Assembly (NCBI GenBank): GCA_027624555.1
Contig: JAQBWN010000004.1
Coordinates: 1-48,650 of the forward strand
Direction of reading: 5' to 3'
DNA length: 48,650 bases
From: a bacterium
Lineage (GTDB): Bacteria; Patescibacteriota; Andersenbacteria; UBA10190
Under the pieces are notes generated by a model that was not told the DNA's origin, did not search any database, and saw only the letters and a program-made list of their open reading frames with translations. Position 1 is the stretch's first letter. Every line of letters starts with the position of its first letter. The position numbers and the translations under genes were made by a program. Positions 10,212 through 14,094 of the stretch are shown piece by piece.

Positions 10212-10739
10212 CTAACAAGAACCCCATAAGTCAAGATTTCCAAATAACGAGGTATTACTGCTCATAATAACGTTTCCAGAGGCAGCGCAGCTAATTGCTG
10301 GTGAGGCGTGATGAAATATTGCATGTTCAACACTTCCGGCGCCAGTATTTTCAAATAGTATTCCATTCCAATTGCGGTTACGTTCATTTAATTCGTTGGA
10401 GATAAATTGAATAGGAGCGCGTTTCGTGCCTCTCGCATCCAGGTTGCCAAATATTTGTATGCCACCATATTCCGATACTGCTATTATGGTGCCAGGTTTT
10501 ATTGTGAGAGTTGCGCCCGCATCTATAGTTACAACGGTATGAATCAAAATTATCCCATCTTCTGGTCCAACCGTTAGGGAGTTAGTAATATGTCTAGGTA
10601 ATGATGTTCCTGTTGTGTAGGCGGGAGTGTGAAATGGGACGTCTGGTACATTTTTATTCGGAGCCAATCCTTGAACATAGTGAAAAGTTGGCGCAAACAA
10701 GAAAAGAGTAGCGATGCTAATTGGGAGAATTGATTTCAT
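10212..10739 (-). CDS. Secreted right-handed beta-helix-like protein
   Basis: Start reset to MKSILPISIATLFLFAP (signal peptide); repetitive VTIDAGATLTIKPGTIIAVSEYGGIQIFGNLDARGTKRAPIQF. Confidence 0.65.
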   Translation of the reverse strand: MKSILPISIATLFLFAPTFHYVQGLAPNKNVPDVPFHTPAYTTGTSLPRHITNSLTVGPEDGIILIHTVVTIDAGATLTIKPGTIIAVSEYGGIQIFGNLDARGTKRAPIQFISNELNERNRNWNGILFENTGAGSVEHAIFHHASPAISCAASGNVIMSSNTSLFGNLDLWGSC

Positions 10740-10771
10740 CTGTATTATAGGAAAGATACCACAGTCTCGTG

Positions 10772-10893
10772 CAAGTAGCTGTAGACATGAGAAGAATAAG
10801 TGTCGAGGAGAAGCGTCGTTATCATCTTGCGATGGAACCACGGCAACCCGAACTGGGCACAAACCCCACAAAAGCAATGTCTACAGTTATTTG
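10772..10893 (+). ncRNA. Candidate structured RNA / leader element upstream of ruvB
   Basis: CAAGTAGCTGTAGACAT (10772-10788) pairs with ATGTCTACAGTTATTTG (10877-10893): 17 bp, two G.U wobbles only valid on the + strand; internal hairpin AAGAATAAGTGTCG...CGTCGTTATCATCTT. Confidence 0.55.
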
Positions 10894-10949
10894 AAAGAGA
10901 ACCCTTTAATCTAGCGTGGATAAGGAAAATATGCAAGTATGAGTGGTAT

Positions 10950-11951
10950 ATGGCTATTGAGGAAGCGAAAACAAGCGTCGTTGCACCAGTTGCATCCGGA
11001 GAGGATGAAACGCTTGATTCTACGCTCAGGCCGAAGCTTTTAATGGATTTTACTGGCCAGTCTCATATTAAGAAGAGTCTTAACGTTTTTCTTGAGGCAG
11101 CAAATCAGCGGGGCGAGAGTCTTGAGCATGTATTACTTGCGGGCCCACCAGGGTTAGGAAAAACAAGTTTGGCGCATATTATTGCGCGAGAGTTAGCATC
11201 TAATATCCGTGTCACATCAGGGCCTATTCTTACTAAAGTAGCGGATTTAGCAGCCATTTTAACAAACTTACAAGAGGGTGATGTGTTGTTTATAGACGAG
11301 ATTCATCGGTTGCATAAATCTATTGAAGAAGTGTTATATCCAGCAATGGAAAGTTATGTTCTGGATTTAGTAGTTGGGCAAGGGCCAGGAGCTAAAACAC
11401 TTCGTATCGACCTGCCTCAGTTTACGCTCATTGGGGCGACCACTCGAGTTGGAATGTTAGGCGCTCCGCTTCGTGACCGTTTTGGGATGACATATCGCCT
11501 TGAGTTTTATGATATATCTGAGATGAAGACTATTTTATCTCGTTCGGCAGCCTTATTGGGCTTAGGGATAGAAGATGATGCGCTTGAGGAAATTGCTGAG
11601 CGTTGCCGCAGAACACCTAGAATTGGAAATCGGTTGCTCAAAAGAGTTCGAGACGTAGCGCAGGTTGGGAGGCATACGCGTATTACAACAGATATAGTTC
11701 AGCAGACACTGGCATTATTGAATATTGATCCGAAGGGGTTAGATACATCAGACCGGCTGGTATTGTCGACAATAATAAATACGTTTAATGGTGGCCCCGT
11801 TGGTTTGCAAACACTTGCGATGGTATGCGCAGAGGAGGACCAAACTATTGAAGATGTAATTGAGCCCTTTCTTATTCAATGTGGGTTTTTGGCACGAACG
11901 CCGCGCGGGAGGGAAGTTACGAATGCTGGGTATGATCACATGGGCAAATAG
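10950..11951 (+). CDS. ruvB: Holliday junction branch migration ATPase RuvB
   Basis: LLAGPPGLGKTSLAHIIARE, LFIDEIHRL, LIGATTRVGMLGAPLRDRFGM; start reset to MAIEEAK. Confidence 0.95.
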   Translation: MAIEEAKTSVVAPVASGEDETLDSTLRPKLLMDFTGQSHIKKSLNVFLEAANQRGESLEHVLLAGPPGLGKTSLAHIIARELASNIRVTSGPILTKVADLAAILTNLQEGDVLFIDEIHRLHKSIEEVLYPAMESYVLDLVVGQGPGAKTLRIDLPQFTLIGATTRVGMLGAPLRDRFGMTYRLEFYDISEMKTILSRSAALLGLGIEDDALEEIAERCRRTPRIGNRLLKRVRDVAQVGRHTRITTDIVQQTLALLNIDPKGLDTSDRLVLSTIINTFNGGPVGLQTLAMVCAEEDQTIEDVIEPFLIQCGFLARTPRGREVTNAGYDHMGK

Positions 11952-12426: not shown

Positions 12427-14094
12427 ATGTTTTTCCTCTTTTTTGTCATAATAGCTCTTTGGGGAATAGCGCAGGACGGTAAAGCGCAGGATGTAATATA
12501 TTCAGAGAATATTCATATTTCTGAATTTCTTCCGCAGCCAGCAGAGGGTGGAACGGCAGGAGAATTTATCGAGCTTCATAATACGTCTGAATTGAGCCAG
12601 GATATTTCTGGATGGATCCTTGACGATATTGAATCGGGAGGCAGTGCGCCCTATAGCATTCCTTCTGGGACTGTGCTTGAGAGTGATGATTATATGGCGC
12701 TTTATACGGTTTCGCCACATGTGTCGCTAAATGATGCGGGGGACCATGTTCGCCTTATTCGCCCAGACGGTGTTGTTCAGGACGATGTTGTGTATACAGA
12801 AAGCACCCGATCGTATTCGTATAATCGAACAGATAACGGATCCTACCTGAAAAGTCCTATACTTACCCCAAATGCTGCCAATGAGTTTCCCTCAACGCCA
12901 ATGCCAGAGCCTACACAAACACCAACGCTAATTCCACAAGTATACTCACCAGATATTCATATTAACGAGTTCCTCTCTAATCCGAAGGGAGATGATGCTG
13001 TGGGGGAGTTTATAGAGCTTGTAAATGCTGGAAGCGAATCAGTCGATATTTCCGAATGGGTATTAGATGACGTTGGGGATGCCGGCAGTGCACCATTTAG
13101 TATTCCCGACGAAACTGTTATTCCTGGAAATGGGTTTGTATCTTTTTATAGGACACTTACAAAAATATCATTGAACAATGATAGTGATCACGTTCGATTG
13201 ATTCGGCCAGATGCGGTTGTGCAGGACGATGTATCGTACACAGACACCAAGGAAGCACATTCGTATAACAGAACAGATGCAGAAAAATACGAAAAAAGTT
13301 CCACCCTGACACCTGGTGCTGCAAATATAATTACAAGTATAAGTACTCCAACTCCGAAACCGCAGGCCGATGAAGATGAAGAAAAAGAGAATGAAATACT
13401 GTATGATTTTTCTGATAAAATATTTATAAACGAATTTCTTCCTAATCCAAAAGGCGAGGATAGCGAATTGGAATTTATCGAAATAAAGAGCTTTGAAAAG
13501 AGAAATATTAATTTATTAGGGTATTTGCTTGATGATGGAGATGGGGGGAGCTTAGCATATAAGTTTACCAAAGAAGATATAATAGAATCTGGAAAAATTC
13601 TTGTATTATTTCGACCAAAAACAAAAATTTCTTTAAATAATGATGCTGACCAGGTGCGTCTTATAGACTCAAGGGGAAAAGTAATTTCAGAAGTTACATA
13701 TGATGAAAAAGTAGTAGAGGGGCAGTCGTATAATAGAAACGTTGATGGTGTTTTTGAGTGGAGTGATGTTGTAACCCCGGGCAAAGAGAACACAATAAGT
13801 ATTCAAGAAAAAGTTATGCCAACACCAAAGCCAAAGGTTACTAAAAAAGCGCCAGTGCGTAAAGTGAGCAGTGTTTCGCGGGTTCTTTCCGCGATTGCAC
13901 CTACAGTGAGTATGTTGCCATGGCCGAGCATATCTCCCGATGCTGGGTTTATTTCTCGTAGTGTAGTATCTGTGGGTAATTCGGCAAATGACTTAACACT
14001 AAGGCAAGGGGTATTTGTCTTGTTTGGTATGAGTGTGGCGGGCATGCAGCTTATAAATGGCATTTCTTATAAGGAAAAAATCTGGCGAAAATAG
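12427..14094 (+). CDS. Surface protein with three tandem lamin-tail domains and C-terminal TM anchor
   Basis: Three repeats of I(H/F)I(S/N)EFLP(N)P..GEFIEL...GW(V/I)LDD...SLN(N)D.DHVRLI separated by Pro/Thr linkers. Confidence 0.8.
   Translation: MFFLFFVIIALWGIAQDGKAQDVIYSENIHISEFLPQPAEGGTAGEFIELHNTSELSQDISGWILDDIESGGSAPYSIPSGTVLESDDYMALYTVSPHVSLNDAGDHVRLIRPDGVVQDDVVYTESTRSYSYNRTDNGSYLKSPILTPNAANEFPSTPMPEPTQTPTLIPQVYSPDIHINEFLSNPKGDDAVGEFIELVNAGSESVDISEWVLDDVGDAGSAPFSIPDETVIPGNGFVSFYRTLTKISLNNDSDHVRLIRPDAVVQDDVSYTDTKEAHSYNRTDAEKYEKSSTLTPGAANIITSISTPTPKPQADEDEEKENEILYDFSDKIFINEFLPNPKGEDSELEFIEIKSFEKRNINLLGYLLDDGDGGSLAYKFTKEDIIESGKILVLFRPKTKISLNNDADQVRLIDSRGKVISEVTYDEKVVEGQSYNRNVDGVFEWSDVVTPGKENTISIQEKVMPTPKPKVTKKAPVRKVSSVSRVLSAIAPTVSMLPWPSISPDAGFISRSVVSVGNSANDLTLRQGVFVLFGMSVAGMQLINGISYKEKIWRK

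Follow-up and report, generated by a model that had tools for sequence, protein, structure and literature searches.

The spacer upstream of ruvB in the window (the whole stretch of 48,650 nucleotides that was analysed) carries a long hairpin, and this raises the question of whether the hairpin belongs to the ruvB mRNA or to a transcript of its own, and of which kind of RNA it would then encode. The first-pass annotation had described a candidate structured RNA upstream of ruvB, transcribed from the plus strand and closed by a 17-bp helix. This helix was confirmed exactly: CAAGTAGCTGTAGACAT (10772-10788) pairs with ATGTCTACAGTTATTTG (10877-10893), with 88 nt between the arms and two G.U pairs when read on the plus strand. 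As detailed below, comparative evidence favours a transcript of the minus strand, and the features are listed in this orientation.

10950..11951, plus strand: ruvB (Pfam RuvB_N/RuvB_C), divergent from the proposed sRNA; candidate -10 TATGAG at 10938-10943, 6 nt before the ATG
10931..10936, minus strand: putative sRNA -35, TTGCAT, in the arrangement TTGCAT-N17-TAGATT; position conserved in relatives
10908..10913, minus strand: putative sRNA -10, TAGATT
10755..10902, minus strand: proposed sRNA, about 140-148 nt, 5'-GUUCUCUUUCAAAUAACUGUAGACAU...AUGUCUACAGCUACUUG...; start at 10902 deduced from promoter spacing, 3' end approximate
10877..10893, minus strand: 5' arm of the closing helix P1, CAAATAACTGTAGACAT, with the near-invariant CTGTAGRCA inside
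10863..10867, minus strand: 5' side of the helix GGGGU/AUUCU, which pairs on the minus strand partly through G.U (A.C on the plus strand)
10856..10860, minus strand: 5' side of P2 (GUGCC)
10809..10850, minus strand: variable apical part, of differing length among homologs (not in threes)
10800..10804, minus strand: 3' side of P2 (GACAC)
10793..10797, minus strand: 3' side of the helix GGGGU/AUUCU
10772..10788, minus strand: 3' arm of P1, ATGTCTACAGCTACTTG, with the near-invariant TGTCTACAG inside
10212..10739, minus strand: gene without a Pfam match, lying downstream of the proposed sRNA in the same orientation; own TATAAT at 10744-10749

Homologs and conserved structure

Homologs of the ruvB-adjacent hairpin were found in 15 genomes beyond the window's own, that is 16 in total, distributed over families f1, f2, f8, f62 and f131. 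The bacteria concerned are ultra-small and Patescibacteria-like, as judged from genome size and gene content. Seven same-family genomes carrying the element were detected by DNA search. A plus-strand covariance model (R1) retrieved twelve genomes including the window's own, and the identical twelve were recovered by a second plus-strand model (R2) among 381 genomes of the phylum. Searching with the inner-helix pattern CTGTAGACA...TGYCTACAG added G018, G094 and G134 with zero matches in the control, and a minus-strand model (R3), trained on most of the 16 genomes with G011 and G283 outside the training set, added the distant homolog G283. The E-values of these models, which were built in this analysis, are rough; R3 matched the window at 10763-10901 of the minus strand with 120.6 bits (E 4e-30), the window copy being itself part of the training set. 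Weak covariance matches at loci L029-L032 and L093-L096, of which L029-L032 and L093 were inspected, were not accepted as homologs.

The element is single-copy in the window's genome; no similar DNA of phage or plasmid origin was found, and none of the virus contigs carries the motif. The sole f1 member without it is G007, whose contig stops 505 bases upstream of ruvB, so that its absence there is not established. A near-perfect tandem duplication (AGATTAATGGCATCAGAAGCCGTATGGGGCC...) is located at this contig edge (locus L042). No recognisable copy was present at the ruvB loci of 12 other genomes of the phylum, and for the majority of the remaining phylum genomes inspected, the stretch preceding ruvB either runs straight into the gene or shows no such RNA. 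At one further locus (L048, in G014), the approximately 400 bases upstream of ruvB contain tandem long hairpins (GGCCGCAGCGGACGTT..., TTGGCAGATCGACG..., GCCAGTGGGACGACAG...), perhaps a repeat array or terminators.

The homologs retain the closing helix, and they do so with covariation: its outer pairs display many two-sided changes that keep the pairing, and P2 changes as well. Altogether 39 cells with two-sided changes were counted as compared to 12 in shuffled alignments (0/500 as high), all slid controls being far lower; for the minus-strand structure the count was 17 versus 6 in shuffles (0/500). The inner closing helix (CUGUAGRCA/UGUCUACAG) is almost invariant, the exception being a single position, A-U or A.C when read on plus and A-U or G.U when read on minus. 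In G283 this inner segment has a different sequence with pairing retained, within a 24-bp closing helix of changed core that is accompanied by a divergent ruvB, the promoter-like TTGACA-N17-TAGACT, a U7 tail and UCCUCGACAC. The variable apical part holds most of an inner hairpin which had been noted in the window and which varies among homologs. A coding sequence was rejected, the distance between the arms differing among homologs by non-multiples of three, in agreement with the initial view that no open reading frame explains the element. A structured RNA next to ruvB is thus borne out by these comparisons.

Strand of transcription and relation to ruvB

The window copy considered alone points to the plus strand. 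Its plus-strand fold reaches -38.6 kcal/mol versus -24.1 kcal/mol in shuffled sequences (z -4.6, 0/200 as stable), and the z-score of the minus-strand fold is -1.3. Furthermore, its plus-strand promoter outscores the minus-strand one and is the sole one passing the strict scan. The homologs point the other way. A TTGnnn-N17-TAnnnT promoter upstream of the hairpin occurs on the minus strand in 13 of the 15 homologs then known, as against 0/15 for the plus strand, shuffles giving a mean of about 1 and a maximum of 4; this count is strict, and near-consensus promoters in G005 and G006 were counted as failing. When a promoter was sought at a common position in nine relatives, the minus strand scored 8.2/12, a value attained by 0/300 shuffles, as compared to 6.6/12 for the plus strand, attained by 34/300. 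In nine f1 genomes the minus-strand promoter keeps a constant distance and is followed by a G start 6 nt past the -10; the region reads TTGACA/TTGCAT-N17-TAnAnT followed, after about five bases, by GTTC. A conserved block beyond the plus-strand 3' arm (approximately AAGAGAAC-N6-AnTnTA) corresponds to this minus-strand -10 and start region. In f2 the promoter precedes the core by some 94-113 bases, and in f8/f62 by about 48.

The 3' side agrees in part of the homologs. On the minus strand a U-tract follows the closing helix in G004, G005, G008, G094 and G283, and separate terminator hairpins are present in G010 and G012; a U-tract after the helix is not clear in the window's genome or in G001-G003. 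The initial assignment to the plus strand is therefore not upheld, homolog promoters and terminators being found on the minus strand. Its promoter, TTGGGA-N16-TATTAT, does exist in the window but is not conserved in relatives, and its -10 overlaps the minus-strand TATAAT (10744-10749) located 4 nt ahead of the ATG of the 10739 gene. Nor do the G.U pairs decide the strand as had been argued: when P1 and P2 are counted together across the homologs, 18 wobbles favour plus and 16 favour minus; many relatives have, in each of these two helices, one pair that reads G.U on plus but A.C on minus. The internal-loop duplex is stabler on the minus strand in 12/12 cases; the helix GGGGU/AUCCU was picked because it pairs on this strand and is not independent strand evidence.

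In f1 the RNA is flanked on one side by the divergent ruvB and on the other by a gene on the minus strand, after which come ruvC and, in some genomes, a YebC-like gene (by eye). Farther along the window, 12427-14094 encodes a protein in which three stretches match the lamin-tail domain (PF00932); its neighbours are a CofD-like protein and a CDP-alcohol phosphatidyltransferase. The RNA is again divergent from ruvB in G018, G094 and G283. In G012 it is located on a separate contig (C29) from ruvB (C49), which is preceded there by an unrelated gene, and in G010 an opposite-strand ORF separates the two. In f1 genomes a -10-like box lies a few bases ahead of the ruvB ATG, implying by its position that the ruvB mRNA is leaderless and that the hairpin would lie outside it. 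Such boxes just before the ATG of both ruvB (10938-10952) and the 10739 gene (10737-10749), also observed in relatives, suggest a leaderless mRNA habit of the lineage. Since the putative sRNA -35 lies right beside the candidate -10 of ruvB, interference between these promoters is conceivable.

These data bear on the proposal that the hairpin is an upstream regulatory element of ruvB, either a riboswitch or an autoregulatory leader on the plus strand. The position of ruvB on the same side in most genomes, the strong plus-strand fold of the window copy and the U.G pairs of P2 that favour plus would all accommodate such a leader. We nevertheless consider it improbable, as no plus-strand promoter is conserved, the conserved promoters, and the terminators seen in part of the homologs, sit on the minus strand, the -10 of ruvB is downstream of the element, the RNA is not beside ruvB in G012, and in G010 an ORF on the opposite strand intervenes. 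Co-transcription with ruvB is thus disfavoured by evidence at the sequence level, namely promoter orientation, the gene's own -10 and the separation in G012.

The proposed sRNA and its possible nature

The feature is most probably an independent minus-strand sRNA gene of about 140 nt, rod-shaped and with its own promoter. Its sequence has the attributes of an independent bacterial sRNA gene: a promoter of its own, a conserved structure and no reading frame. Transcription would begin near 10902 from a sigma-70-type promoter located in the spacer close to ruvB, and the ends of the RNA would pair into a long closing helix whose inner segment is nearly invariant. Beyond this helix, an asymmetric internal loop, the short conserved helices GGGGU/AUCCU and GUGCC/GACAC and a variable tip are predicted. 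Where a U-tract follows the closing helix or a hairpin just past it, as in several homologs, the structure would double as an intrinsic terminator. The invariance of helix and loop sequence suggests that a protein binds the RNA and that it acts in trans. Homology, base-pair covariation, the lack of a known family, conservation of the minus-strand promoter and a separate ruvB -10 are established from sequence; from these we infer actual transcription, exact ends, protein binding and action in trans.

One functional version of this independent sRNA would be a divergent or analogous 6S RNA, whose closing stem, bubble and terminal stem would imitate an open promoter and tie up RNA polymerase. We regard this as unlikely but deserving attention. 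In overall plan the proposed sRNA is similar to 6S RNA (RF00013), as an independent sRNA with a putative promoter of its own and a predicted rod shape, in which a long closing stem joins the paired ends and an asymmetric central bubble and a terminal stem follow. Rfam 6S was not found in any of the 13 members of the order or in G018, and it was found (E<0.005) in five others of 30 phylum genomes; among these 30 it occurs only where the present RNA is absent; this pattern rests on small numbers of related lineages and is weak and phylogenetically confounded. Against a 6S identity, the RNA gives no 6S match at E<=10, it is shorter (about 140 nt versus the 187 positions of the 6S model) and its conserved motifs are unlike those of the 6S matches at loci L033 and L034. 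These two loci are probable 6S RNAs in their own right (42.5 and 41.9 bits, just under the Rfam gathering score); an M50-like protease gene, identified by eye, lies upstream of each.

An inverted repeat acting at the DNA level between divergent promoters, as an operator or the remnant of a mobile element, would agree with the inner CTGTAGAC/GTCTACAG repeat being invariant as DNA in most members. We judge it very improbable: the outer helix varies with compensation, the core of G283 has changed with pairing kept, several copies are followed by a U-tract, and there is a single genomic copy.

It is harder still to believe in an SRP (4.5S) RNA too divergent for Rfam. The rod shape and similar length do recall the bacterial small SRP RNA (RF00169), for which none of 30 phylum genomes (G000-G029) gave a match, 13/14 controls being positive. 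However, no homolog of the proposed sRNA matches an SRP RNA model, and the SRP-RNA-binding M domain of Ffh (PF02978) was detected in 0/30 of these genomes versus 14/14 controls, which makes an SRP RNA unlikely; the protein search covered the M domain of Ffh.

A chance snoRNA is the sole Rfam match at E<=10 for the element region on both strands, no Rfam family reaches its gathering score in the window, and the homologs have no credible match in Rfam. The kinship with the SAM-riboswitch clan that the first-pass annotation had loosely suggested can practically be discarded: it rested on a loose resemblance of GATGGAACCACGGCAACCC, a short stretch on the plus strand (the proposed sRNA being on the other) that had been called a conserved-looking core and falls, on comparison, in the variable apical part rather than in a conserved ligand-binding core, while a covariance search of both strands gave no SAM-clan match at E<=10 and the adjoining genes are ruvB, here divergent, and ruvC, none of them SAM-related.

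A probable RNA gene class and its implications

The proposed independent sRNA represents a class of RNA gene that Rfam 15 lacks; it shows covariation, its promoter and synteny are conserved, and it is present in at least five families. No report on structured RNAs of this bacterial group was found in the open-access papers searched. The case also illustrates how folding one sequence by itself and arguing from its G.U pairs can mislead on strand where homologs disagree. There is some, rather small, chance that the RNA is a new housekeeping-type sRNA of ultra-small bacteria that would take the place of 6S RNA in controlling RNA polymerase globally, while being unrelated to it in sequence and folding differently. 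If this were true, 6S-type control would exist in lineages without a recognised 6S RNA.
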